A stretch of DNA of 22,070 nt from a virus. The notes under the pieces were generated by a model. The model saw only the letters and a list, made by a program, of their open reading frames with translations. It was not told where the DNA came from and did not search any database. This document shows positions 3,443 to 22,070 of this stretch, one piece after another. Location of the stretch: IMG/VR virus record IMGVR_UViG_3300018084_000018, positions 1-22,070 of that record. The stretch is one strand, 5' to 3'. Numbering within the stretch: position 1 is the stretch's first letter; every line of letters starts with the position of its first letter. Made by a program: the position numbers and the translations under genes.

Positions 3443-3760
3443 TTAGGCCCTCTTAGCGGTCTTCTTGCTGACAGATTTTGTCACCTTCTTGGTGGATACG
3501 GTCTCAGCGGTCTTCACCCTCAGTGCGCTCAGCTCCGTCTCCGTGATCTCCTTGACCTTACCGATCTTGCCAAGGTGGATCATGTAGAACATGACCACTC
3601 GGGTAGGATCCTGCTTCGTGACGAGACCACCGCGGACCACATGCTCAGTGATCTCCTTGACGGTCCCGCCCTTTAGATCACCAAACGCATTCGAGATCAG
3701 CCGGAGCTGCCCCACTGGACTCGTGGTGAGGACTTGTGTTGGTGTGTAGATGCGTGCCAT
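3443..3760 (-). CDS. Winged-helix-like DNA-binding protein with basic C-terminal tail (paralogue A)
   Basis: This 105-residue protein starts at ATG 3760 with AAGGAG upstream. Residues 18-72 form a compact domain (QLRLISNAF, then TVKEITEHVVRGG, then VTKQDPTRVVMFYM) that recurs in two proteins encoded at 18259 and 18631. Shared positions include the opening Q, a T-[VI]-x-E-[IL]-T helix, a TKQ or TRQ turn and a V-V-x-[FY]-Y helix, a pattern that fits a winged helix. The tail (82-105) is rich in K, T, S and V (KKVTKSVSKKTAKRA), as in histone H1-like or DNA-coating proteins. It has its own promoter and is transcribed away from the control region, so a regulator or nucleoid-type protein is likely. 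The fold and role are inferred from pattern, not from a search. Confidence 0.8.
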   Translation of the reverse strand: MARIYTPTQVLTTSPVGQLRLISNAFGDLKGGTVKEITEHVVRGGLVTKQDPTRVVMFYMIHLGKIGKVKEITETELSALRVKTAETVSTKKVTKSVSKKTAKRA

Positions 3761-7075: not shown

Positions 7076-7922
7076 TGACTTTATCGAGGAGGTGACCAAG
7101 TGCTATGCAAGTCTGATAGCCTACGGTAGGTGGGCCGACCGGTCACCATACTCAGAGGATGAGGCCTGGAGTAAGGCATTCTTGGGTACTGCACAAACAT
7201 ATCGTAAGGAGGTTAAGACCGATGTTCATCTTAGAGATACTACTGTGGTTGCTGGTCGCGGACGTCGTGATGAGGCTGTACAAGTACTGGACAAGGAGGG
7301 TCAGATGAGAGAAGGGCAACCAATGGAGCAATCACCTGCAGATCGAGATAAGGCATTCAGCGACAGGTGTGTCATCCTGCTCATTCGCTTGGTCGCTCAG
7401 CTTAAGATGGTGCATCAAAGTCCAGAGTATCTTAATGTATGGAGGTACTGGACTATGGCTTTTGGGCCATATGCAGGGCCAAGTTATGCACCACAATTTG
7501 ATGAGGCTCTTGCTCATGTTGAATGGAAGTTCGACAAACCAGTGCTTAGCTCATATCTCAAGCAGATTGAGTCAATCAGCGACCTCATCAAGACCTGGCA
7601 TGGCCGTTTCCTTAACGTGATCAACGTTGTGGACAACAGCCTGCACTCTGGTGGGTTCCCTGTGATGGGTGAGGTATACCATCGACGTGAGGTGACCGAC
7701 AAGGTATCTACCTTCGACTTGGCGTTTGAGCAGTTGAGGCACAAGCTCCTTAATAAGGAGAACTTTGAGGGAGATACCCTGTACATTCGTGTTGCTCCAA
7801 CAATTGAGAAGGTGTATGACTTTGAATCTACCAAGGACGTTTACTGCGGGATAGCTCGTTTCTCATACACCGTCAGGCTTGGGACAGTTGTGATAGATAA
7901 GGATAAGTTCATGCAAAAGTAG
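7062..7922 (+). CDS. Long open frame, possibly two genes joined in frame
   Basis: From GTG 7062 the frame runs 286 codons. The first roughly 50 residues (KTIDDFIEEVTKCYASLIAYGRW and following) read like a real short protein. The next roughly 30 (KTDVHLRDTTVVAGRGRRDEAVQ) look like an out-of-frame translation and coincide with a nested membrane-peptide gene in another frame. At ATG 7305 a strong ribosome site (AAGGAGG) restarts translation and overlaps that peptide's stop (ATGA), giving a 205-residue protein. The 205-residue part is the better supported gene. It has a helical first half and a beta-rich end (DTLYIRVAPTIEKVYDF and following). No family is recognised. The upstream part may be a separate gene that lost its stop. 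Confidence 0.65.
   Translation: MKTIDDFIEEVTKCYASLIAYGRWADRSPYSEDEAWSKAFLGTAQTYRKEVKTDVHLRDTTVVAGRGRRDEAVQVLDKEGQMREGQPMEQSPADRDKAFSDRCVILLIRLVAQLKMVHQSPEYLNVWRYWTMAFGPYAGPSYAPQFDEALAHVEWKFDKPVLSSYLKQIESISDLIKTWHGRFLNVINVVDNSLHSGGFPVMGEVYHRREVTDKVSTFDLAFEQLRHKLLNKENFEGDTLYIRVAPTIEKVYDFESTKDVYCGIARFSYTVRLGTVVIDKDKFMQK
7222..7308 (+). CDS. Nested 28-residue membrane peptide
   Basis: AAGGAGGT (7206-7213) lies nine bases before ATG 7222, one of the best ribosome sites in the operon. The peptide has one hydrophobic helix (FILEILLWLLVADVVM, residues 2-17) and a basic end (KYWTRRVR), and its TGA overlaps the next ATG in an ATGA. The frame differs from the long one around it. It resembles the leftward 33-residue membrane peptide in design (a helix with W and L, then a basic tail). 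Function is unknown. Confidence 0.5.
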   Translation: MFILEILLWLLVADVVMRLYKYWTRRVR

Positions 7923-7930
7923 GAGGGACC

Positions 7931-8341
7931 ATGAAACCAATCAGCATCATCAGATGCCAAAATCTCCTAGACAGCATCTCGCCTAGGGCGATGAAGGCAT
8001 GGAAGGAGCTATGGGAAAAACCAACCAAGGATCTTCTCAACCTACGACTCGCGGCTGAGCTCATGTCCGGTGAAGAACTCGATATGCACTTCGATAAGTG
8101 GTACGAGGTAATGATGGAGGACATCGAGGATAGAAAGCTACGAGAAAAAAACAAGAATCATGTGATGAGATCAACAAAGGAGGAGGTAAGAAACCACGTT
8201 CTTGAGCTGTATGTCATTGTCAGGGAGGTCCTGTCGCGCTACTACGCAGGGAGGCTACATGTCGGTGCAGGTTTACTTGCTAGGTCAGGTGGACCATCAG
8301 GAGTTAAGCGCTCAGTTGGCCACCAAAGTACAGATTCTTGA
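7931..8341 (+). CDS. Hypothetical helical protein
   Basis: AGGAGGG lies five bases before ATG 7931. The 136-residue product is mainly helical and charged (KAWKELWEKPTKDLLNLRLAAELM, then a run rich in E, D, K and R). The last roughly 28 residues (LHVGAGLLARSGGPSG and onward) look like out-of-frame coding and overlap the next gene by 83 bp, suggesting that an original stop near 8250 was lost. No motif is recognised. Confidence 0.62.
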   Translation: MKPISIIRCQNLLDSISPRAMKAWKELWEKPTKDLLNLRLAAELMSGEELDMHFDKWYEVMMEDIEDRKLREKNKNHVMRSTKEEVRNHVLELYVIVREVLSRYYAGRLHVGAGLLARSGGPSGVKRSVGHQSTDS

Positions 8342-8489
8342 CGAATCCATCAGGGCGATCACGTTTGAGGAGGGTCAGCGCGCCCTCCAAGAAGGACGGA
8401 TCATTCGGTTCTTAACCTTGTTGAGGTGGTTGGATGAGCTCGCTACCGAACAAGATTTCCATCATGTACCAAGGTGGTTTAACTGCTGA
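8259..8489 (+). CDS. Hypothetical helical protein
   Basis: ATG 8259 is chosen because GGGAGG lies about six bases upstream; an in-frame codon at 8202 has no such support. The 76-residue product is helical (DHQELSAQLATKVQILDESIRAITFEEGQRALQEG) with a C-terminal LLRWLDELATEQDF. It has no metal motif or membrane segment. The long overlap with the upstream gene is in a different frame. Confidence 0.6.
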   Translation: MSVQVYLLGQVDHQELSAQLATKVQILDESIRAITFEEGQRALQEGRIIRFLTLLRWLDELATEQDFHHVPRWFNC

Positions 8490-8919
8490 GGTAATCGCGA
8501 TCGACGTGAATTGCCCCATCTTTAAGTCTGGTTGCGGCTACTGCTGGACCTATGCACAGGCGTGGGGGATGACGGAGGCAGAGCTATGTGAACGATGCTG
8601 GAAAAAGCATGATGAGTTGAGGATTTGCCCTAACTGTAAGCGTCACTGTCTTGACCCTAAACTTTGGAACTTTAAGCGGCACATGTGTCTGACGTGTGCG
8701 AAGGAGAAACCATGGCCACCACCGAAGCAAAGATCTTCAACTGCACCAACTGCAACGATGCAGGTGCAGCCTCTGAAATGTTCATCTACAATAACGAGCT
8801 TCTCTGCCGTAAGTGCATCAAGGCACATACCCCCTACCCCTTCTGTCATGACCCCACCAAGTGCCTCCAACGAGGAATCTGCACAGCCGACCCCAACTGC
8901 TGCGAGTGAGGAATCATGA
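8434..8919 (+). CDS. Multi-zinc-site protein with out-of-frame-like tail
   Basis: GAGGTGG lies about five bases before ATG 8434, favouring this start over ATG 8464. Residues 20-90 carry ten Cys: C27, C34, C37, C52, C55, C65, C68, C72, C85 and C88, enough for two zinc sites and perhaps a third. This section reads as a real zinc protein. From about residue 91 onward the sequence becomes Pro/Ser/Thr-rich and lies over the next gene in another frame, so it is probably not the ancestral C-terminus. No function can be assigned. Confidence 0.6.
   Translation: MSSLPNKISIMYQGGLTAEVIAIDVNCPIFKSGCGYCWTYAQAWGMTEAELCERCWKKHDELRICPNCKRHCLDPKLWNFKRHMCLTCAKEKPWPPPKQRSSTAPTATMQVQPLKCSSTITSFSAVSASRHIPPTPSVMTPPSASNEESAQPTPTAASEES
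8712..8909 (+). CDS. Small Cys-rich phage protein
   Basis: GGAGAAACC precedes ATG 8712; an earlier in-frame codon at 8685 has weaker support. The 65-residue product has CTNC (11-14), CRKC (32-35) and a Cys-rich end with C45, C51, C57, C63 and C64 in a 'CHDPTKC...C..DPNCC' arrangement. That end pattern is familiar from phage zinc proteins of unknown function. The gene lies wholly inside the 3' part of the neighbouring frame, and its codon pattern looks the more natural of the two. It is followed by ATG 8916 six bases after its stop. Confidence 0.7.
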   Translation: MATTEAKIFNCTNCNDAGAASEMFIYNNELLCRKCIKAHTPYPFCHDPTKCLQRGICTADPNCCE

Positions 8920-9368
8920 ACTTCAAGAATGAGCAAGAAAAGAAGGACCACGCAGACAGCGTACGGTTCTTTAGGTCTTACTGCGTGCACTACGACTCAG
9001 CTGGGATGCCGTCCTTTTGTAAGGCGGGCATCTCCTATAGGTCAGTTGGCCTGGACTTTCTTAGTCGGCCCTGCATCAATGGTCATAAGGATGCTCAGAA
9101 GAGCTTGGTTAAATGCAGTAGGTGGGAGAGACCAAGCGAACCGGCCGCCACCGAGCACGCGGATCAGGCCGTATACAGTGATCGCAGGATGAGGATCCTA
9201 TTGCCCTTCCTTGCCAATTGGAAGAAGAAGCACTGGAATGAGAATCTTGTTGATGTGATCGACTGCCCAGTATGTGAGACTGGCCAGCTGACCATCAGCA
9301 TGAGGACCAGCAATAAGCATACCCGTGGGCACTGTACCACCATCAATTGTGTGAGGTGGATTGAATGA
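8916..9368 (+). CDS. Two-part zinc-binding phage protein
   Basis: GAGGAATC precedes ATG 8916. The 150-residue product has an N-terminal zinc module (C23, C35, C53 and C67, in the form C-x-H-Y ... FCKAGI ... PCIN ... C-x-x-W) seen in many small phage proteins. A second ribbon sits at the C-terminus (CPVC 117-120, C140, C145). A basic, Trp-containing helix (LPFLANWKKKHWNE) joins them. The role is unknown, though nucleic-acid binding would fit. It overlaps the next gene by four bases. Confidence 0.74.
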   Translation: MNFKNEQEKKDHADSVRFFRSYCVHYDSAGMPSFCKAGISYRSVGLDFLSRPCINGHKDAQKSLVKCSRWERPSEPAATEHADQAVYSDRRMRILLPFLANWKKKHWNENLVDVIDCPVCETGQLTISMRTSNKHTRGHCTTINCVRWIE

Positions 9369-9598
9369 TACAGGAGGATAAGACCAGTATGAGTGATATT
9401 CATGAAGGAGAGTGGAAGAGAAACGAGAACTATGTATGTCGCACCTGTGAGGATGCGGCGTACATCAGTAAGTTCAATGTAAACCTGTGGGGCTGTAAGA
9501 CCTGTGGCTTCACCACATTGAACGTTTACATCTATTTTAAGGAGATCGGCAATGTCAAAGTGCCTGTGCAAGCTAGAGATCATCCCAATACAGATTAA
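9365..9598 (+). CDS. Small zinc-ribbon protein
   Basis: ATG 9365 forms an ATGA overlap with the previous gene. A second in-frame ATG at 9389 follows AGGAGG by 11 bases, so the true start could be either, giving 77 or 69 residues. The product has a simple ribbon: CRTC (25-28) and CKTC (44-47), with strands between and after. The 3' end overlaps the next gene by 47 bp. No specific family is recognised. Confidence 0.68.
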   Translation: MIQEDKTSMSDIHEGEWKRNENYVCRTCEDAAYISKFNVNLWGCKTCGFTTLNVYIYFKEIGNVKVPVQARDHPNTD

Positions 9599-11607: not shown

Positions 11608-11930
11608 GAAGGTACAAACACAAATCCTATGGAAGGAACCTAATCCTTATGGCAGAAGAAAAACTGTCTGACTTTGCATCACGCCCAATCAGCATCAGCT
11701 TTCGGATGATCTCAACCAAGTATAGCTCCAACCAATGGGAGGTTGAGATCCAGATGTCAGCCCAGGTCTTTGGTCCAAAAAACAACAACTCGCTCTGTGT
11801 GGGCAGGGCCTTTGTGGTCGACACATATGGGACCATGAGTCCCCTCTTGGCATTTAAGACCGCTGTAGATCAAATTGTGAAAGGAGACAAGAATTGGAGA
11901 CCAATCTTGTGCCACGACCAGGAAAGATAA
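11604..11930 (+). CDS. Hypothetical protein, beta-rich
   Basis: The start at ATG 11604 is coupled to the previous stop (ATGA); an internal ATG at 11650 (MAEEKLSDF) is an alternative that would give 92 residues. The product has a beta-rich middle (ISISFRMISTKYSSNQWEVEIQMSAQVFG) and a helical end (LLAFKTAVDQIVKGDKNW). No motif is recognised. Its end overlaps the SNF2-like helicase start by 37 bp, so the two are probably translated together. Confidence 0.62.
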   Translation: MRRYKHKSYGRNLILMAEEKLSDFASRPISISFRMISTKYSSNQWEVEIQMSAQVFGPKNNNSLCVGRAFVVDTYGTMSPLLAFKTAVDQIVKGDKNWRPILCHDQER

Positions 11931-13378
11931 GTCCGCTGATCGCCACACAACGGACCGCCCTCAAGGCGTTTCTGGCCAACGACTACTTCGCTTTGTTCGA
12001 TGAGCCAGGGATGGGCAAATCACGGGTTGCTATTGAGGCGGCCAAGGAGATGTTTAAGTCTGGGTTGGTAACCCGCGTGATGGTGGTTTGCCCAGCGCCC
12101 GTCCGTTTTGCGTGGGCAGATCCAGAGTTTGGTGAGCTGCCAGCATGGGGTGTGGACTCGAAAGATGTTTTCATCTTTGACTCGTACTCATACCACAAGC
12201 TATGGCACAAAAATTGGCAGTGGGTCATCGTCTCGTACGACATCCTTCGGAGTGAAGGCCATCATGCCAGCTTGATCAAGTGGGCAAGAGAACAGCACGC
12301 CATGATTGTGATGGATGAAAGCTCCTACATCAAGGCAATGCGTGCCGCGCGTACGAAGGCGTGCATCAAGCTAGCCCGATACTTTAAGCGGAGGTACATC
12401 CTCAATGGTACACCGATCGCTAACACGCCTGAAGACCTGTACTCCCAGTTTTTGGTGCTTGATTACAACATCATTGATTGCAGTCGTTGGGTCTTTCGCC
12501 TACGTTATTGTAAGATGGGTGGATACATGGGGAAGCAGGTGGTGGGCCTCGCGAAGGAGACGCAGGTAGAGCTGTACAAGAAGATCAGACCGTTCTATCT
12601 GCAACGTAGAAAGAAGGAGGCCTTAGACCTTCCACCTGTCACCTTAACGCCACGGTTCGTTCCACTGGACAAAACGACGTGGAAGATATATGTAGACATG
12701 CGTGACGAGCTCATCGCAATCCTCAAGGATGGGCCTGGAGACCAGAAGATTCTCACCGCTTCTAATGCTGGTGTTAAGCTTGTTCGGCTGATGGAGATCA
12801 CGGCAGGCCAAGTAGAAGAGCATGTGGTAGGAAGTGAGAAAATTGACGATACCCTCGACTATCTTGCAGAGCGACAAGAGGGGCGCCTGATCATCTGGAC
12901 CTGGTTTAGGGTTGAGACTAAGCGCGTTACTCAGGCCCTTAATGTGGTGGAGAACCGTTCAGTCGGCATGCTGATAGGTGGCATGTCTCAGCATAATCGA
13001 GAGGCAGTACTGCACCAGTTTAACGATGATCCAAACGGGATCCTCGTCTCGCAGCTCGCGGCCGGTGGGATGGGTCTCAACATGCAGCGTGCCTCTAACA
13101 TGTTGTTCCTCTCGCGTGCGTATAGCCTGTTGATGAGGATACAGGCCATTGGTCGAATTGATCGCATGGGTCAGGCCGCTGAGAGTGTCTCTGTGGTAGA
13201 CTCGATCGCGACGGGACCAAAGGGTGAGCCAACCGTGGACCGTGCGGTGCTGAAGGCTTTGAAGAGAAAGGCCGAGCTTGCCAACTGGACTAGGGGAGAA
13301 TGGTTAAAGGTCCTTCAGGAGGAAAAGACATCAGCGTTACGAAGTAAGGATTTATTTGACGCATCTGATTTACAGTAG
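11894..13378 (+). CDS. SNF2/SF2-family DNA helicase-translocase
   Basis: This 494-residue protein starts at TTG 11894 behind AAAGGAGAC; GTG 11909 is a fallback. It has the full SF2 set: Q-motif-like Q19R20TAL, Walker A DEPGMGKS (36-43), CPAPV (66-70), the DExx box MDESS (140-144), NGTP (171-174), and in the second RecA domain LAAGGMGLNMQRA (388-400) and QAIGRIDRMGQ (417-427). The GRxxRxGQ signature points to the SNF2 branch. These enzymes move along double-stranded DNA using ATP, to displace proteins or branch-migrate. Short SNF2 proteins like this are common in phage replication regions, and its neighbours (primase, UvrD-like helicase, polymerase) suggest a role in replication or recombination. 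Confidence 0.93.
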   Translation: METNLVPRPGKISPLIATQRTALKAFLANDYFALFDEPGMGKSRVAIEAAKEMFKSGLVTRVMVVCPAPVRFAWADPEFGELPAWGVDSKDVFIFDSYSYHKLWHKNWQWVIVSYDILRSEGHHASLIKWAREQHAMIVMDESSYIKAMRAARTKACIKLARYFKRRYILNGTPIANTPEDLYSQFLVLDYNIIDCSRWVFRLRYCKMGGYMGKQVVGLAKETQVELYKKIRPFYLQRRKKEALDLPPVTLTPRFVPLDKTTWKIYVDMRDELIAILKDGPGDQKILTASNAGVKLVRLMEITAGQVEEHVVGSEKIDDTLDYLAERQEGRLIIWTWFRVETKRVTQALNVVENRSVGMLIGGMSQHNREAVLHQFNDDPNGILVSQLAAGGMGLNMQRASNMLFLSRAYSLLMRIQAIGRIDRMGQAAESVSVVDSIATGPKGEPTVDRAVLKALKRKAELANWTRGEWLKVLQEEKTSALRSKDLFDASDLQ

Positions 13379-14720: not shown

Positions 14721-15515
14721 ATGGCAAAGGCAGTAAAGGAAGATCCCAAGAAGAAAGATCCAGTCAAGCCGGCGGCGTCTAAGGCACTGGTAGACCAAAA
14801 GGGTGGGGCGTTAGCATCAAGACCATCCTACATTCCGGCAGGTTCTACGGGGTTGGAGGAGGCAGACAACCAGGATTTTACAGTACCACGCCTGGCTATC
14901 TGTCAATCCAATAGCCCGCAACGAAAGAAGCAAGATCCCAAGTTTATCCAAGATCTACTTGAGGGTCAGTTATTCAACACGCTTTCTGGTGAGATCTATG
15001 ACACTGAGATTGATCTCATCCCGCTGTACATGATTAAGACCCGCATCAAGTTCAAACCAATCGCAGAGGGCGGTGGCATTGAGTGCCAATCGTTCAACGC
15101 AATTGATGGTGGCAGGTTATGCGAGACCTGCGCCTCCTGCCCACACTCACAGTTTCAGGAAGATGAACCTCCCGCCTGCTACCTCATCTACAGTTATCCG
15201 TCACTGATCGTTCGAGACGGTAAGCTGACCTCTGAACTGATTGCCATGAGCTTTAAGAGCGCCAGCACAAAGGTGGCTCGTAACTTCAATACCATGGTAA
15301 GGATGCGCAATGCACCCTTGTATGCCGCGATGGTTCACGTGACCCCAATTGACGACGTAGGAGCTGGTCAGCAGTTCTTCAACTACAAGTTGGAGTCGAG
15401 GGGCTGGTTGGATGACCAGATGTTTAAGCAGGTTACCTCATTCTACGAATCCATGAACCGCGAGGCACTCAAGGTACACGCTGATGACGACCCCGAACCA
15501 ACTGGTGATATTTAG
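14721..15515 (+). CDS. Candidate phage ssDNA-binding/replication protein with Cys cluster
   Basis: GGAGAGACC precedes ATG 14721. The 264-residue product has a Lys/Ala/Pro-rich flexible N-terminus (1-40), a core opening with DFTVPRLAICQSNSPQ and LEGQLFNTLSGEIYDTEIDLIPLYMIKTRIKF, and a Cys cluster (C122, C134, C137, C140 and C153) that could bind zinc. Its C-terminus is acidic (DDDPEPTGDI), a common feature of phage and bacterial SSB proteins. The 'vPRL..Q..SP' start and beta-rich core resemble a phage family often found beside primase and recombination genes. I think of it as an OB-fold-like DNA-binding protein, but this is inference; a direct fold comparison would settle it. Confidence 0.6.
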   Translation: MAKAVKEDPKKKDPVKPAASKALVDQKGGALASRPSYIPAGSTGLEEADNQDFTVPRLAICQSNSPQRKKQDPKFIQDLLEGQLFNTLSGEIYDTEIDLIPLYMIKTRIKFKPIAEGGGIECQSFNAIDGGRLCETCASCPHSQFQEDEPPACYLIYSYPSLIVRDGKLTSELIAMSFKSASTKVARNFNTMVRMRNAPLYAAMVHVTPIDDVGAGQQFFNYKLESRGWLDDQMFKQVTSFYESMNREALKVHADDDPEPTGDI

Positions 15516-16974
15516 TGGGCTGTTCACCGGTCGGGCGTCGGCATACGGGATTTGGAGTGATCAGCACGGGGCGAAGACCATCCAACGCCCCGTGACTCCT
15601 CAGCATTATCAAGATCACTTGGATGGTAAGCTCGGTCTAGGCATCGTCCCAATCCAAGAAGATGGGACTTGTCTGTTCGCGGCCATCGACGTTGACGTCT
15701 ACGACCTGAACCACCTGACCCTTGCAAAGCGGATTGCAGACTACAAACTACCGCTCATTGTCTGCAAGACAAAATCTGGAGGTGCACACCTATTCGCATT
15801 CTTTAAGGAACCAATTCAGGCAGCTGTCGTAAAGTCTCAGATGAAGTCATGGGCGACTAAGCTCGGATACACAAAGTCAGAGATCTTTCCAAAGCAGGTT
15901 AAGATCACTCCAGATGTCATCGGTAATTGGATCAATCTTCCGTATCATAATGCTAATCAGACGGTCCGATATGCCATCGGCACAGAGCGACCACTCTCAT
16001 TAGCTGAGTTCTTTGAAGCTGTAGACAAGCTGCCAACATTTCAGATCCAAGAATCTGGAGTAATCGATGATGATGAGGTATTAAAGGAGTATCCGCCCTG
16101 TCTCAGGGCATTGACCAAGCTAGGACTACCAGAGGGGTCACGTAACTCTGGGCTGTTTAACTTCGGAGTTTTCTTTAAGAAGTCAAACCCGAAGGATTGG
16201 GAATCTCAGTTGATGGAGCACAATCTTCGGAATGTGAGTCCACCACTCCCATACAAGGAGCTTAACACCGTTGTCCGGTCACTTAACAAGACCACGTACC
16301 AATATACCTGTGACACGGAGCCAATCTGTAGTCATTGCGACTATGACTCATGCGCAAAACTTAAGTTTGGGATATCGAATTTCCCTGGTAAGGAATCAGA
16401 TAGCATCTACCATCCGGCGGTGATCACACACTGTAGGAAACTTAATACGGATCCACCATACTTTATGTTGGAGGTGAACGGCAAGGATATCTCACTTTCA
16501 AGTGAAGAGTTCCTGAACTTTAGAGTCTTCCGATTGCGCCTGATGGAGATCATGAATCTAGTGGTCAAGCCGCTGAAGCAACTTGACTGGGAGAAGCAGG
16601 TAAAGGACTTGCTTGATAAGCGGACTGAGATTGGGGCACCTCAGGATGCCTCTATCAATGGTCAGATCCTTAACTGTGTTACAGAGTTCTTGGAGTTGTG
16701 TGAAAAGGCCAAGCAAGACATGGACATCTTTCGTGATCTACCAGTAAAGAAAGGAGAGTACATTGTCTTTAGGGGCAACTCACTCAAGAAGTACATGGCA
16801 ATGCATAAGTTAGATAGGATCGCAGATAATAAGCTCTTCATGCTGATTAAGAATCATGGTTGCAATTACAAACGGGTCTCAATTGACGGCAAGTTGGTCT
16901 TGTTATGGGCAATTAAGTACGATGAGTTCTTTGGTCTAAGAAAAGAAGAGGAGTCCGATGCCTTGGAGATATAA
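15484..16974 (+). CDS. Archaeo-eukaryotic-type primase (AEP/PriCT architecture)
   Basis: This 496-residue protein has an N-terminal AEP catalytic core: FAAIDVDVYD with the metal-binding D69 and D71, KSGGAHLFAFF (97-107) with the H102 position, EIFPKQ (133-138) and GNWINLPYHN (147-156). A PriCT-like helical region follows (PPCLRAL from 205, EGSRNSGLF from 217), then a Cys cluster (C276, C282, C285 and C290) that probably binds zinc. The core most resembles the TOTE/phage AEP group. It would make primers for replication. The C-terminal roughly 190 residues are helical and not recognised. ATG 15484 has only a weak ribosome site and overlaps the previous gene by 32 bp; the start is therefore less sure than the function. 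Confidence 0.88.
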   Translation: MTTPNQLVIFSGLFTGRASAYGIWSDQHGAKTIQRPVTPQHYQDHLDGKLGLGIVPIQEDGTCLFAAIDVDVYDLNHLTLAKRIADYKLPLIVCKTKSGGAHLFAFFKEPIQAAVVKSQMKSWATKLGYTKSEIFPKQVKITPDVIGNWINLPYHNANQTVRYAIGTERPLSLAEFFEAVDKLPTFQIQESGVIDDDEVLKEYPPCLRALTKLGLPEGSRNSGLFNFGVFFKKSNPKDWESQLMEHNLRNVSPPLPYKELNTVVRSLNKTTYQYTCDTEPICSHCDYDSCAKLKFGISNFPGKESDSIYHPAVITHCRKLNTDPPYFMLEVNGKDISLSSEEFLNFRVFRLRLMEIMNLVVKPLKQLDWEKQVKDLLDKRTEIGAPQDASINGQILNCVTEFLELCEKAKQDMDIFRDLPVKKGEYIVFRGNSLKKYMAMHKLDRIADNKLFMLIKNHGCNYKRVSIDGKLVLLWAIKYDEFFGLRKEEESDALEI

Positions 16975-18148
16975 GTTATTCGGACCCCCTGGAACTGGTA
17001 AGACAACCACGATGATCAATACACTTTCATCATGGTTAAGGCAGATACCCATCGATGAGATAGCGTTTGTGACCTTCACGCGTGCGGCACGAAAAGAAGT
17101 CGAGGACAGGGTTAAACAAGACCCACGATATAAGCACAATAACAATTTTCCGCGTCTTAAAACTATCCATGCAATGTGCTATGCTGAGCTACGCGGTGTG
17201 AATGTCATGGGTGCAAAAGAATTGAAGGAGTTTGGAAAATCAGCAGGGGTAGATCTGAACACAGGTCTTACACTTGATCCATTGATGGAAAATGAGTTCA
17301 CGTTTACTAGATCAAGAAATCAGTGGGATAAGATCCTGCAGGCTTACCACCTTGCACGGCACAAGATGCTTGACCTGAGTGAGGTATTGCCAATTGAGAT
17401 CCCTCAGTCGGCGGCTGATGCCTTCATCAATGCTTTTAGGGAGTGGAAAAACGTACAAGGGTTGTCTGACTTTACTGATCTTCTATTCCTGTATCTTAAC
17501 TTTGGTCACCCGCTTCCCATAAGGCGAATGATCATCGATGAGGCGCAGGACTTATCAAAGTTGCAATGGAAGGTTGTCGATAAGATGTCGCAACAATGCG
17601 AGATGGTGTATATGGCAGGAGACGATGACCAAGCAATTTTCAACTGGGCAGGTGCATCGTCCGAGGTTTTCTTAGATAGAGAGGTGGACGAGTTTAAGGT
17701 CCTGGGTAACAGCCACCGGCTGACTGCTCAGGTAAAGGAGGTAGCTGATAAGATAATCTCTCGTGTAGACAGAAGGCAGGAAAAGGTCTTCATCCCAAGA
17801 ATGATGATGGGACCTAATGTGGAGATCGCATTCCGTCTAACTGAGAACATGTTCCATGATCCTAATACTATGATCTTAGCACGTGGGCGTTCGCAATTAA
17901 ACGAGATGCTTGGACCACTTAAGTTTCTAAAGGCGAAGCCGCTTGATGGGATGATGACGATCCACCAGGCTAAGGGGCGTGAGGCGAACACGGTCGTCTT
18001 AAACACAGCGATGCCGAAGTTGAGTCATGATCACTTTTGGCAGGTCTCAGATCAAGAAGAACACCGTGTGTGGTATGTGGCCGTCACCAGGGCGAAGCAC
18101 AAACTAGTAATCTACAAACCTGACTCATGGCGGAATTACGACATATAG
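16958..18148 (+). CDS. UvrD/Rep-like SF1A DNA helicase
   Basis: GAGGAG precedes ATG 16958. The 396-residue product has Walker A GPPGTGKT (9-16), motif Ia FVTFTRAA (37-44), motif II DEAQD (194-198), motif III GDDDQAIFNWAGA (221-233), motif V-like HQAKGREANTVVL (about 335-347) and motif VI VAVTRAKHKL near the C-terminus. It is much shorter than bacterial UvrD (about 700 residues), with small 1B and 2B subdomains, which is usual for phage versions. Its likely job is to unwind duplex DNA 3' to 5' at the fork or in recombination, next to the primase whose gene it overlaps by 17 bp. Confidence 0.93.
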   Translation: MPWRYKLFGPPGTGKTTTMINTLSSWLRQIPIDEIAFVTFTRAARKEVEDRVKQDPRYKHNNNFPRLKTIHAMCYAELRGVNVMGAKELKEFGKSAGVDLNTGLTLDPLMENEFTFTRSRNQWDKILQAYHLARHKMLDLSEVLPIEIPQSAADAFINAFREWKNVQGLSDFTDLLFLYLNFGHPLPIRRMIIDEAQDLSKLQWKVVDKMSQQCEMVYMAGDDDQAIFNWAGASSEVFLDREVDEFKVLGNSHRLTAQVKEVADKIISRVDRRQEKVFIPRMMMGPNVEIAFRLTENMFHDPNTMILARGRSQLNEMLGPLKFLKAKPLDGMMTIHQAKGREANTVVLNTAMPKLSHDHFWQVSDQEEHRVWYVAVTRAKHKLVIYKPDSWRNYDI

Positions 18149-18258: not shown

Positions 18259-18609
18259 ATGGCTAAGAAACAGAGTAAGGCCGCCGCGGCTCCCACGGAG
18301 AAGGTCAGCAAGAAGGCAGCTGAGACTGATGTTGGTGCTGCTGCAGGGAAGAAAGCAGCCAAGGAGGCAAAGGTACCCAAGGTCGCCACGAAGTTCAAAT
18401 TGACCGACAAGGAGGTGAAGTTCAAGACTGGTGGCCAGGTCGAGTTGATCGTCAACGCTCTGAAGAAGAAGGGAGAGGCCACGATCGATGAGATCACAAA
18501 AGAGATCGAGGGAAAGCTGCAGACGAAACAATCCGCGAAGTCAGTGGTCAGCTTCTACATGACCAGCATGAAGAAGAACGGCACCATCGAGGCAGTCAAG
18601 GCAGCCTAA
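18259..18609 (+). CDS. Winged-helix-like protein with histone H1-like Lys/Ala tail (paralogue B)
   Basis: This 116-residue protein is the first gene after a strong promoter. Residues 1-48 are rich in K and A (MAKKQSKAAAAPTEKVSKK and onward), as in histone H1 tails and bacterial H1-like proteins. Residues 60-113 carry the domain shared with the products at 3443 and 18631: QVELIVNAL, ATIDEITKEI, TKQSAKSVVSFYM. H1 also pairs a winged helix with basic tails, so similarity of design is clear even if common descent is not. It would coat or bend DNA, or regulate transcription. A standalone regulator is equally possible. A 21-bp gap separates it from paralogue C. Confidence 0.82.
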   Translation: MAKKQSKAAAAPTEKVSKKAAETDVGAAAGKKAAKEAKVPKVATKFKLTDKEVKFKTGGQVELIVNALKKKGEATIDEITKEIEGKLQTKQSAKSVVSFYMTSMKKNGTIEAVKAA

Positions 18610-18630: not shown

Positions 18631-19233
18631 ATGAAAAACCAACCTATTGAACCCGTCCTTCGCGAGAAGGACGGGGATCTTTACTACGTGAAGGGGTCTT
18701 ATGAGCTTCTTATTAGTGCTCGTGGGATCTCTGTCACGGTCGCGAAGTTGAAGCTACTCAGTGCATCATCCGCCCAACGGTTTCTCATTCATCACGATTT
18801 AGAGATGCCGCTCACCTGCCCATCCGAAATCTACGTGCCTGTCGTTGCCAGCTTCGTACAGCTTACATGGTTACAGCATTATTTCCATGCAGTTGACCCG
18901 AAGATTAAGGACCGCCATGATAAGCGGGTAGAAAGGTTCAAGATCTTTCTTAAGACTGGTGAGATGCCTGACAGCTATATTCAGCCCAACAAAAAGACCT
19001 CAGACGTTCTGCAGAAAAGATACATCCTGAAAGAAGGTACCAAGACTGGTGGCGGTCAACGTGGCGTGGTGTTCGATTCGTTGAAACGTTTGGGTCCCGC
19101 AACCATCGCCGAACTTACTGCAGATGTGGTCAAGGGTGGGAAGTTAACCACTCGTCAAGAACCTGAGCGCATCGTCCGATACTACATTGTTCTCCACCGA
19201 GATAAGGAGGTCCTTGATGCCCCAGCCGACTAG
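18631..19233 (+). CDS. Two-domain protein with winged-helix-like C-terminus (paralogue C)
   Basis: This 200-residue protein has an N-terminal domain (about 14-110, with YVKGSYELLISARGISVTVAKLKLL and LQHYFHAVDPKIKDRHDKRVERFKIFLKTGEMP) that I do not recognise. Its C-terminal winged-helix-like domain (143-196; QRGVVFDSL, ATIAELTADVVKGG, TRQEPERIVRYYI) matches paralogues A and B. No ribosome site is seen before ATG 18631, and a strong hairpin lies in the first codons, so translation may be controlled or may start further inside (for example GTG 18688). The 3' end overlaps the methyltransferase start by 17 bp, tying it to that cassette. Confidence 0.75.
   Translation: MKNQPIEPVLREKDGDLYYVKGSYELLISARGISVTVAKLKLLSASSAQRFLIHHDLEMPLTCPSEIYVPVVASFVQLTWLQHYFHAVDPKIKDRHDKRVERFKIFLKTGEMPDSYIQPNKKTSDVLQKRYILKEGTKTGGGQRGVVFDSLKRLGPATIAELTADVVKGGKLTTRQEPERIVRYYIVLHRDKEVLDAPAD
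18652..18675 (+). promoter_or_regulatory. Hairpin at the start of paralogue C gene
   Basis: CCCGTCCTT and AAGGACGGG form 9 perfect pairs around the 6-base loop CGCGAG. It spans codons 8-15 of the gene as called. It could stop transcription after paralogue B, or block ribosomes at the start of paralogue C. No T-run follows beyond GATCTTT, so termination would be weak. Confidence 0.5.
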
Positions 19234-19963
19234 GTCGGGCCGTACGCGTTCAGCGCGTCGGTTTGACAAGACCCAACTTAAGGCTGCACATTACGGGTAC
19301 AACGTACACCGTGACTACGCAGCCCACTTCTTCCGATGGGGGTTCATTAATAAGAACCGCGCCTATGGGAAGAGGATCCTTGATGTCGGTTGCGGGCAAG
19401 ATCAGCCGCTACTCCGTGTCCTGATGGGGAACAAAAGCCTTATCCCTGCCGAGTACAACGGTATTGATCTAAATAAACAACCTGAGAGATCCATCTGCCC
19501 GTCATGGGCATCCATCTGGTGGGAGTTTAACTTCATCGCAGATTTCATTGAGCTGCGTGGGCCCTATGATACGATCACCTGCTTTGAGGTGATTGAACAC
19601 ATGGAGACTGAGGATGGTCTTACCCTGTTGATCAACATCAAGTCATTAATGGATCAACGTTCTACCCTCTATCTGTCAACGCCCGTGTTTAACGGTGCCG
19701 CGGCGGTAAACCACATTCATGAGTACACCATCGAGGAACTCAACAGTCTTATTGAGGAGGCAGGCCTCAAGGTCAAGAAGCGTTGGGGTACCTTCGCCAG
19801 CAAGCCTGAGATCATCAAGGCCATGGATGAGAATGAACGCCAGATCTTTGAGATGCTAAATGAGTACTATGGTGGGGAGGTCATGTCCATCATGTTTGCT
19901 CCGCTGTATCCAGACTACTCACGGAACAACCTGTGGGAGGTGACCCTTGCAGATCGTTCTTGA
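19217..19963 (+). CDS. SAM-dependent methyltransferase (class I fold)
   Basis: ATG 19217 is chosen because AAGGAGG lies about six bases upstream. The 248-residue product has a basic N-terminus (MPQPTRSGRTRSARRF), motif I ILDVGCGQD (54-62), the acidic end of strand 2 in YNGIDLN (80-86), and TCFEVIEHME (121-130) after strand 4. It lacks DPPY/NPPY or the PC catalytic pair of DNA base methyltransferases, so direct DNA methylation at adenine N6 or cytosine C5 is unlikely. The form is that of small-molecule or cap-like methyltransferases (type 11/12). It lies next to the kinase-glycosylase fusion and the synthase homologue (17-bp overlap), so a nucleotide or modified-base substrate is possible but not shown. 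Confidence 0.85.
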   Translation: MPQPTRSGRTRSARRFDKTQLKAAHYGYNVHRDYAAHFFRWGFINKNRAYGKRILDVGCGQDQPLLRVLMGNKSLIPAEYNGIDLNKQPERSICPSWASIWWEFNFIADFIELRGPYDTITCFEVIEHMETEDGLTLLINIKSLMDQRSTLYLSTPVFNGAAAVNHIHEYTIEELNSLIEEAGLKVKKRWGTFASKPEIIKAMDENERQIFEMLNEYYGGEVMSIMFAPLYPDYSRNNLWEVTLADRS

Positions 19964-20876
19964 AGGATGTGACTGCACCGGTAAGACGGTGTTTGCCAAG
20001 AAATTGGCAGAGAAGATCATGGAGCTATATGGTAAGGAGGTGAGGCATGAACATGAAGGCCTCCCACCAGATGTCTCCAACCTGTTTGAGTACTATGCCA
20101 TCAAGGCGATCACGTACGATTACTGTATCCATGACCGCCTACACCTGGGTGAACGCACGTATGGCCTGGTCTATCGTAACAACGACCGGCTTGGTGCGGT
20201 TGGTCAACACATCATCGATCACATCATTGCGAGTGAGGGGTTTGGTGTGATCTGTACTCATCCATTTGTTGAGGTTGAAAAACGCTGGAGAAAGCGCATT
20301 AACCGTGAATATGTTAAAGATTCTGAATCCTTACGCCGTATTCATGCCGCCTATGATGACTACGCCTCTGATCATTGGATGCGTATTGATCCATTCGATA
20401 TCCATGATCAGACCATCGTGTTTGCACGGCTGAAGCATCTACGCGAAAACAATAAGCTCATCCCCTTCGTTTGGGGCATTGGACCAAGCACGTCTGAGAC
20501 CCTAATCGTTGGGGAGATGAGCAACCATCCGATCTATGATCTGCCGTTTTTCTCAACCAGTGGATCAAGTGCCTACCTCATCAACACCCTCCTGCGTCTC
20601 AAGATCGGGCACAACTACTACCTGACCAACGCCTATCGGAAAGATGGATCACCCCGTGTGATGAAGCCCATCATCAATGAGCTTAAGAACCTTAAACGCG
20701 TCATCGCGTTAGGGGCCGTGGCCATCAAGATGTTAAGGCAGCAAGGAATCCCAGCAGTTAATATCTCGCATCCTCAGTACTACCAACGCTTCAAGCATCA
20801 TGAGGCCATGGAATATCTCAAACTATTCAAGATCGCGATGGAGGCCAACAATGCAGCTCAACTGCGGTTACTTTAA
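19947..20876 (+). CDS. Fusion of NMP-kinase-like P-loop domain and uracil-DNA-glycosylase-like domain
   Basis: The TTG start at 19947 is favoured by GGAGGTG seven bases upstream. Residues 1-165 look like a thymidylate-kinase-type P-loop fold: P-loop GCDCTGKT (7-14), IHDRLHLGE (61-69) at the DR position, RWRKRINR (113-120) as a possible lid. Residues 172-309 resemble the UDG superfamily: LIVGEMSN (186-193), PFFSTSGSSAYLINTLL (200-216), YLTNAYRKDG (225-234), VIALGAVA (252-259) and HPQYYQRF (275-282). These match the order GE-x-P ... PF-x-x-SG ... TN ... HP of family 4/5-like glycosylases. I know of no standard phage enzyme with this pairing. A role in making or policing modified nucleotides is inferred from its neighbours. 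Confidence 0.82.
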   Translation: MQIVLEGCDCTGKTVFAKKLAEKIMELYGKEVRHEHEGLPPDVSNLFEYYAIKAITYDYCIHDRLHLGERTYGLVYRNNDRLGAVGQHIIDHIIASEGFGVICTHPFVEVEKRWRKRINREYVKDSESLRRIHAAYDDYASDHWMRIDPFDIHDQTIVFARLKHLRENNKLIPFVWGIGPSTSETLIVGEMSNHPIYDLPFFSTSGSSAYLINTLLRLKIGHNYYLTNAYRKDGSPRVMKPIINELKNLKRVIALGAVAIKMLRQQGIPAVNISHPQYYQRFKHHEAMEYLKLFKIAMEANNAAQLRLL

Positions 20877-21693
20877 TGCGGCATATCGTGGTCTTGCCAA
20901 CCATATCATCTACGACGGCACACCCGCCGGGCCACGTGGCATCCAGACGCGAGAGATTCTCGGTGCATCATTCCGCGTGAATGAGCCCATGCACAATATC
21001 CTGTACCATCCCAACCGCGACCTGAACTACAGGTTTATGGTTGCGGAGTTTCTGTGGATCCTCTTTGGTTACGACGACGCGCCGTCCATAGGAAATTACA
21101 ACAAACGAATCGTCGAATTCTCTGATGATGGCTTAAAGATGTGGGGTGCGTATGGGCCAAGACTTCAGGTGGCACTTCCATACGTGCTTGGGAAATTAAG
21201 GGAGGACCCACAGACAAGGCAGGCGGTGGCCAATATCTGGGAAACCCCGTGGACGCCAACCAAGGACGTCATGTGTACCCTGAACGTTCAATTCATCCGA
21301 CGAGAGGATTTCTTGAACACGATCGTCACCATGCGGAGCTCAGACATCTTCCTTGGTCTGCCGTATGATTTCTATGTATTCTCACAGATTCAAAATTTGA
21401 TGTGTCACTACATCAAGTGCCTGCCAGGTTTCTTACAGTTTAACCTAGGTTCAGCCCACATGTATGATAGAGACCTAGACAGACTTGGTGAGATGTGCAG
21501 TGGTCTGCAAGACATCTCATGTTATGGTAGCGACCGTATGTTCTCCCCTCCTCCACCAGAGCTTGCCGCTGTCTTCAATGACCCTAAACCTGAATGGGCT
21601 ACCACAACCTTTTCCCAACCATGGAATACGCTCAAAGAAGTATTGATCCACCCGCGTAAGGAGGCCTTTAATCTCCTGCTGACGGATCAATAA
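20851..21693 (+). CDS. Thymidylate synthase homologue, probably dCMP-type (hydroxymethylase or methylase)
   Basis: ATG 20851 is chosen because GGAGG lies about six bases upstream; the frame opens earlier at 20800 but lies over the upstream gene. The 280-residue product keeps the synthase fold marks: E66 in EFLWIL, catalytic C142, R162, S163, D165, the GLP loop (169-171), H203 and Y205. The spacings from C142 to R162, S163, D165, residue 173, H203 and Y205 equal those in E. coli ThyA from C146. At the position of ThyA N177, which selects dUMP, this protein has D173. T4 dCMP hydroxymethylase also has Asp there. The residue after the catalytic Cys is T143 instead of His. The enzyme should therefore use dCMP, adding a hydroxymethyl or methyl group at C5. 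Confidence 0.87.
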   Translation: MQLNCGYFNAAYRGLANHIIYDGTPAGPRGIQTREILGASFRVNEPMHNILYHPNRDLNYRFMVAEFLWILFGYDDAPSIGNYNKRIVEFSDDGLKMWGAYGPRLQVALPYVLGKLREDPQTRQAVANIWETPWTPTKDVMCTLNVQFIRREDFLNTIVTMRSSDIFLGLPYDFYVFSQIQNLMCHYIKCLPGFLQFNLGSAHMYDRDLDRLGEMCSGLQDISCYGSDRMFSPPPPELAAVFNDPKPEWATTTFSQPWNTLKEVLIHPRKEAFNLLLTDQ

Positions 21694-22070
21694 TGCAGGC
21701 CAAACTTGACTTCACGGTAAACGCGCCGAAGGTGAAGATGGAACCACCCAACCTTACCGGCGTTAAGATGATAGGTCTAGATACTGAGACCACAGGTTTG
21801 AACTGGCGTGGTCATGACGAACCTACTGGATTCGGTATCTATGCCCCTGGTCTAGAGTATTACTTCGGGTGGGCCCATCAAGGCGGTGGTAACATGGACA
21901 AGGCCGCGGTCTCTCGATGGGCGAATGACAACCTAAAAGGAAAAGAGATAGCACTGGTCAATCCTAGCTTTGACATCTCAATGATGTTGAAGGCGGGGGT
22001 TGACCTTGAAAAGCTTGGGTGCAAGCCCAGATGCGTCCAGTACTATTACGCCTTGCTCAATGAGCAGCGA
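21693..22070 (+). CDS. DnaQ-type 3'-5' exonuclease domain, probable start of family A DNA polymerase (3' end beyond window)
   Basis: ATG 21693 overlaps the previous stop (TAATG). The 126 visible codons include GLDTETTGL (28-36) with the metal-binding D30 and E32, the exonuclease I motif of the DnaQ fold, and ALVNPSFDISMML, an Exo II-like motif with Asp. The spacing and sequence fit the proofreading domain of phage DNA polymerase I-type enzymes, where the polymerase domain follows. A stand-alone exonuclease cannot be excluded because the frame runs past the window edge without a stop. Placement after the dCMP-type synthase suits a polymerase that would use modified nucleotides. Confidence 0.8.
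   Translation, partial: MQAKLDFTVNAPKVKMEPPNLTGVKMIGLDTETTGLNWRGHDEPTGFGIYAPGLEYYFGWAHQGGGNMDKAAVSRWANDNLKGKEIALVNPSFDISMMLKAGVDLEKLGCKPRCVQYYYALLNEQR

Follow-up and report, generated by a model that had tools for sequence, protein, structure and literature searches.

A single open reading frame in the stretch of virus DNA analysed here (22,070 nucleotides of IMG/VR record IMGVR_UViG_3300018084_000018; the window) encodes a P-loop dNMP kinase joined to a compact domain with the uracil-DNA glycosylase (UDG) fold (Table 1). Each part is of a known kind; their pairing is apparently undescribed, as a preliminary description of this DNA had supposed. That supposition holds for the open-access literature, in which no report of the pairing was found and in which the papers on phages AXL3 and PW916 mention no glycosylase. 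Public records of the homologues carry the label thymidylate kinase, as in AXL3 and DSL-LC01, or no label.

The frame runs uninterrupted from the TTG at 19947 to a stop codon ending at 20876. A strong Shine-Dalgarno sequence, GGGAGGTGA (19935-19943), lies closely upstream of the TTG, and a start codon is present at the equivalent position in L005, a close relative (86% identical). The whole protein was modelled by AlphaFold with a pLDDT of 94.7 and a pTM of 0.91. Full-length homologues spanning 91-96% of the protein were identified in five phage records, and an IMG/VR profile scan gave about 80 loci, nearly all with both halves in one frame. Isolate or assembled phages with the fusion are AXL3, PW916, DSL-LC01, ctUtU524, and phage G, whose gp315 is a distant fused member. 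The open frame and these homologues put the fusion beyond chance and agree with the preliminary description of two domains in one uninterrupted frame. A frameshift or two-gene artefact was rejected, because full-length homologues of unrelated contigs keep one frame. At its 5' end the fusion gene is overlapped by a methyltransferase-like gene that stops 17 bases inside it, and the most likely start of the downstream TS homologue, ATG 20851, is located inside its 3' end. These overlaps suggest that the three genes may be translationally coupled.

Table 1. Features of the kinase/UDG-like fusion gene and its neighbours in the window
Feature	Position	Strand	Basis
Kinase/UDG-like fusion gene (309 aa, TTG start)	19947..20876	+	Open frame, Shine-Dalgarno, full-length homologues, AF2
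dNMP-kinase domain, residues 1-170	19947..20456	+	YorR 3kb2 Z 15.1; profile; phrog_761
P-loop GCDCTGKT, residues 7-14	19965..19988	+	Conservation among 57 homologues
DR motif, residues 63-64	20133..20138	+	Invariant, 57 homologues
UDG-fold domain, about residues 176-303	20472..20855	+	Lone-domain model, structural matches, profile to 1ui0
Motif 1 remnant G189-E190 (= G40-E41 of Thermus UDGa)	20511..20516	+	Asp/Glu in 55/57
F201, stacking Phe (= F54 of Thermus UDGa)	20547..20549	+	Phe in 56/57
N228, base-reading Asn (= N80 of Thermus UDGa)	20628..20630	+	Asn in 57/57
Motif 2 H275-P276-Q277 (= H155-P156 of Thermus UDGa)	20769..20777	+	Conservation, alignment
dCMP-type TS homologue (predicted dCMP hydroxymethylase)	20851..21693	+	Pfam TS E 1.2e-18; MilA match; Asp177, Cys
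SAM-methyltransferase-like gene (ATG 19217)	19217..19963	+	Pfam Methyltransf_23 E 1.9e-12
DNA polymerase exonuclease region, cut by window end	21693..22070	+	phrog_17 E 1.7e-6

The N-terminal half possesses the P-loop, the DR motif and the fold of a dNMP kinase of the thymidylate kinase/YorR type. Among 57 homologues, G7, G12, and K13 of the P-loop are invariant and D9 is nearly so. Residues 1-170 of the fusion model matched YorR (3kb2) at Z 15.1 and thymidylate kinases at Z about 13-14; a profile built from the 57 homologues matched YorR (2axp) at E 9e-22, and the domain matched phrog_761 at E 2.7e-8. YorR of SPbeta and the thymidylate kinases (2axp, 3kb2) thus share the P-loop kinase fold and DR motif with the fusion, but they are single-domain proteins, and for the fusion the neighbouring genes suggest that the substrate is a modified dCMP. 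In T4, gp1 phosphorylates hm-dCMP; the step predicted for the fusion, encoded beside a dCMP-type TS homologue, has its counterpart in the pair of gp1 and gp42 (dCMP hydroxymethylase). The fusion and its kinase have no detectable relative in T4, whose whole record, gp1 included, gave no match to the family profile. A scan of genome contigs returned only three weak matches to the kinase half, on Actinoplanes-type contigs, and PADLOC matches to the fusion were confined to the P-loop region.

The C-terminal half, modelled alone (pLDDT 94.4), has the alpha/beta/alpha fold of the UDG superfamily. With VIA-align, 50 of the 50 matches listed belonged to this superfamily, the best being UDG TM0511 (1vk2; Z 13.4, rmsd 2.7, 125 aligned), which also aligned with residues 169-303 of the full model (Z 13.2, rmsd 2.7, 132 aligned). 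Family 4 and UdgX headed the matches listed (Z 12.1-13.4), followed by the UDG domain of the phiLo phage DNA polymerase (11.7), then MUG and SMUG1; the UdgX-dUMP complex 6ajp was also listed, and vaccinia D4 structures occur among the fold matches. The 57-homologue profile matched TM0511 at E 2e-5, and a profile of the C half only matched Thermus family 4 UDG (1ui0) at E 6.6e-7. When the 57 C halves were searched separately, Pfam UDG matched 34 of them (best 9.6e-11) and gave no match to the copy encoded in the window. According to the structural model, the C half is predicted to be a UDG fold closest to family 4/UdgX. It is under purifying selection, with dN/dS of 0.24 and 0.18 against two relatives. 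The profile searches and the superposition on a family 4 UDG, both proposed as checks in the preliminary description, bear out its assignment of the two halves, and the motifs it had named were all located (GCDCTGKT, 7-14; DR, 63-64; VGE, 188-190; PFFSTSG, 200-206; TNA, 227-229; HPQ, 275-277). An unrelated fold for the second half was rejected, since the structural matches listed were all of the UDG superfamily.

Residue equivalences were taken from an alignment to Thermus UDGa (1ui0), and conservation was counted over the 57 homologues. The pocket residues of family 4 (Glu/Asp, Phe, Asn, and His) are kept in 55, 56, 57, and 55 of the 57, respectively, E190 of the fusion standing for E41; in motif 2 the His is found in 55, the Pro in 57 and the Gln in 49. 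Previous study of Thermus UDGa showed that N80 bonds N3 and O4 of uracil and that His155 is the main catalytic residue, H155S losing over three orders of k2, while the effect of Asn89 is only about six-fold (PMC5387724). The invariant Asn of the C half would be the residue that reads the uracil face. Brig1 and Brig3, also UDG superfamily enzymes, act on glucosyl-hmC and hmC (PMC11078745, PMC13160076); the base-reading position of Brig1 is Glu147 (PMC11078745), and Brig3 requires Asp127. These defence glycosylases share with the fusion the superfamily and the link to modified cytosine, but they are bacterial, stand-alone and acidic at the base-reading position, an acidic residue that none of the 57 homologues has. 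Because this residue is Asn throughout and not Asp/Glu as in the Brig enzymes, the C half would be better suited to a base of the uracil type than to cytosine or hmC.

Unlike the family 4 enzymes (Thermus UDGa 1ui0, TM0511 1vk2), with which it shares the fold (Z about 13) and the equivalents of E41, F54, N80, and H155, the C half is joined to a kinase. Its motif 1 is without the PG, and it has neither the Fe-S cysteines nor the loop of Asn89, nor the hairpin that precedes motif 2. None of the four cysteines of the family 4 Fe-S cluster is present, with zero Cys in the C half of the window. Where family 4 has GE(A/G)PG in motif 1 and Asn89 in motif 3, the protein of the window shows GEMSN and only a short loop, and the Glu47 position of Thermus UDGa is absent as well. 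Relatives vary in motif 1 (GERAG in L008, GERPG in L012), and position 42, Gly in Thermus UDGa, is often Lys/Arg among the homologues. The missing hairpin, judged against the Thermus UDGa alignment, may be where UdgX has its catalytic loop with the cross-linking His109, and its loss makes DNA binding by the C half uncertain; the net charge of the C half is about zero on average. The UDG half is perhaps an active glycosylase.

The neighbouring genes point to modified cytosine. The TS homologue in the window has its best PDB match in the CMP hydroxymethylase MilA; it carries Asp where E. coli TS has residue 177, and the catalytic Cys is also present. Among 119 distinct TS homologues, Asp177 was found in 118 and the Cys in all; the sole Asn belongs to Triscuit, whose kinase is without the UDG half. 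According to previous studies, Asp177 marks dCMP preference and is tied to modified-cytosine contigs (PMC8670742), and its T4 counterpart is Asp179, likewise with dCMP preference (PMC6400193). That all but one of the 119 have the dCMP-type Asp indicates a pathway of 5-modified cytosine, whose product is probably 5-hydroxymethyl-dCMP. A thymine-modification (dUMP-type) pathway is not favoured for the same reason. Structure prediction, profile searches and the neighbouring genes support the link to a modified dNMP that the preliminary description proposed, and the modified base is narrowed to a cytosine derivative.

A TS homologue lies near the fusion in 83 of 85 loci, usually immediately 3'. 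Genes for dCMP deaminase accompany 71 of the loci, those for a MazG-like pyrophosphatase 27 and those for the methyltransferase 18; all these counts are lower bounds because the flanks are limited. In the window, the upstream methyltransferase-like gene is 35% identical to AXL3 gp31, which is two genes 5' of the AXL3 fusion; the polymerase that the window cuts is complete at 7762-9513 in the near relative L005. AXL3 carries the fusion (gp29) together with this gene set. Its authors took the cluster for thymidylate synthesis, and they reported that AXL3 DNA resisted 35 of 37 restriction enzymes; the two that cut it, TasI and Tru1I, recognise sites made up of A and T alone (PMC7504290). This pattern fits modified C, and modified G could also account for it. 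The Asp-type TS argues against the thymidylate-synthesis reading.

The UDG half is not found throughout the family. On the kinase tree (97 rows), relatives with the kinase alone are scattered, which makes the UDG half a separable module. The tree has 11 changes of the fused state, of which well-supported branches force at least eight, compared with 16.9 in shuffles. This distribution fits an old fusion that would have been lost several times, and gain by exchange could also have contributed. A survey from the TS side, which used a smaller TS alignment leaning towards close Asp-type relatives, covered 66 loci: the fusion was present in 30 and the kinase alone in 24, the flank held no kinase in 11, and a single locus had just a UDG-like frame. 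The 24 kinase-only loci indicate that the UDG half is dispensable for modification. Pfam UDG detected no separate UDG gene in 11 IMG/VR kinase-only contigs, with a model that also missed most fused copies, and searches of the whole records of M6, SPO1, Vi01, PhiW-14, YuA, and T4 found zero relatives of the fusion. In L079 (5992-6723) the kinase is followed by a short degenerate UDG half in which neither the HP motif nor the Phe of the pocket is present, likely a loss in progress. L145 (196-708) has a UDG-like frame with no recognisable kinase half, immediately 5' of an Asp-type TS homologue and near the contig end.

We propose that the two-domain enzyme would function in a phage pathway that substitutes a 5-substituted cytosine for cytosine. 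The product of the TS homologue would be 5-hydroxymethyl-dCMP (or 5-methyl-dCMP). This modified dCMP would then be phosphorylated by the kinase half to give the diphosphate, the step that gp1 performs on hm-dCMP in T4. Less surely, the UDG half may flip a uracil-type base into its pocket and excise it, the Asn reading the uracil face, the Phe stacking and the His stabilising the leaving base; candidate targets are U and the 5-hydroxymethyl-U that arises from hmC deamination. One protein would in this way carry both the supply of modified C and a check for U-type errors. As a whole, an hm-dCMP kinase with a uracil-type base checker that cuts on DNA is put forward tentatively, at somewhat less than an even chance. 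The further step, a built-in quality check in which the kinase supplies modified C and the UDG half removes its deamination product from nucleotides or fresh DNA, is a rather doubtful one, and we know of no organism in which the supply of a modified base and the removal of its deamination product are combined.

The UDG half might instead bind without cutting: it would hold DNA or a uracil-type base, whether flipped out or free, and would tether or tune the kinase at the replication site. Catalytic parts of motif 1 and motif 3 are missing or replaced, UDG domains occur on the polymerase frames of SPO1, PMBT14, and Triscuit and in 9qhs, and vaccinia D4, a UDG that serves in the vaccinia polymerase holoenzyme, is among the fold matches of the C half. 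However, the pocket Asn, Phe, and His are near-invariant here and the SPO1 and PMBT14 polymerase copies are without the Asn and Phe, while catalysis in Thermus UDGa depends mainly on His155 and only about six-fold on Asn89 (PMC5387724); binding without cutting is possible, though on the improbable side. Less probable again is that the UDG half works on mononucleotides, binding or hydrolysing dUMP or hm-dUMP, and in this way bars deaminated nucleotides from the adjacent kinase. The compact domain without Fe-S lid or hairpin before motif 2, the basic residues that follow motif 1 in many members, its confident placement against the dNMP kinase (pTM 0.91), the dCMP deaminase near 71 of 85 loci and the solved UdgX-dUMP complex (6ajp) would all suit this, but the fold model was built ligand-free and, to our knowledge, the known UDG superfamily enzymes all act on DNA.

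Purifying selection on the C half, the invariance of its pocket residues and the neighbouring dCMP-type TS homologue speak against an ordinary thymidylate kinase with a decaying, functionless C-terminal remnant, and we consider this very improbable in spite of the thymidylate kinase label in the AXL3 and DSL-LC01 records, the absence of the C half from scattered relatives and its degeneration in L079. Recognition of modified cytosine itself, for example in testing DNA for correct modification, has a precedent in Brig1 and Brig3 on glucosyl-hmC and hmC (PMC11078745, PMC13160076), but Glu147 and Asp127 of those enzymes are replaced by Asn in 57 of 57 homologues, and removing its own modified base would wreck the phage genome; the chance of this is slighter still.

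A UDG fold is likewise joined to a DNA-synthesis enzyme in the family-A DNA polymerases of SPO1, PMBT14, phiLo (9qhs; Z 11.7 to the C half), and PaBG, some of these phages having modified DNA, although the partner there is a polymerase and not a kinase. Such frames were located in SPO1 (NC_011421, 102292-102729), in Triscuit (MH047631, 44041-44367), and at 8522-10327 of L089; in PMBT14 and Triscuit the UDG domain is on the polymerase while the kinase is without one. In the SPO1 and PMBT14 polymerases, Ser or Pro replaces the base-reading Asn and the Phe is gone. Since the kinase-fused copies kept both, they appear to have been retained for binding a uracil-type base. In Bacillus phage G (gp313-gp319; L086, 3759-9495), the fusion gp315, whose motif 1 is more MUG-like (AQNPG), is near an alpha-glucosyltransferase (gp313), a dCMP deaminase-like gene (gp317) and an Asp-type TS homologue (gp319), a gene set that suggests glucosylated hmC DNA. 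Pseudomonas phage M6, which has hypermodified thymine, encodes a stand-alone frame with weak UDG similarity (gp048; L162, 3833-4339).

Phages that replace cytosine must distinguish the modified base from its deaminated form, and repair of such DNA has hardly been studied. The fusion suggests that phages couple the building of modified DNA to the checking of wrong bases; with the kinase and the UDG-like domain on one chain, and the pocket intact across many phages, this question can be tested with one purified protein. The fusion may also yield a new base-specific binding or cutting reagent, and its identification corrects the name thymidylate kinase that AXL3 gp29 and others bear in public records.

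The other genes identified in the window include a terminase large subunit (397-1983, -), an SNF2-type helicase (11894-13378, +), a primase (15484-16974, +), and a UvrD-type helicase (16958-18148, +), which are an ordinary tailed-phage replication and packaging set. Finally, three small proteins (18631-19233, +; 18259-18609, +; 3443-3760, -) seem to have a common segment, T..E.T..V..G...T.Q.P.R.V..Y, the first and the last aligning at E 2e-8, and this segment is perhaps a repeated winged-helix-like domain.
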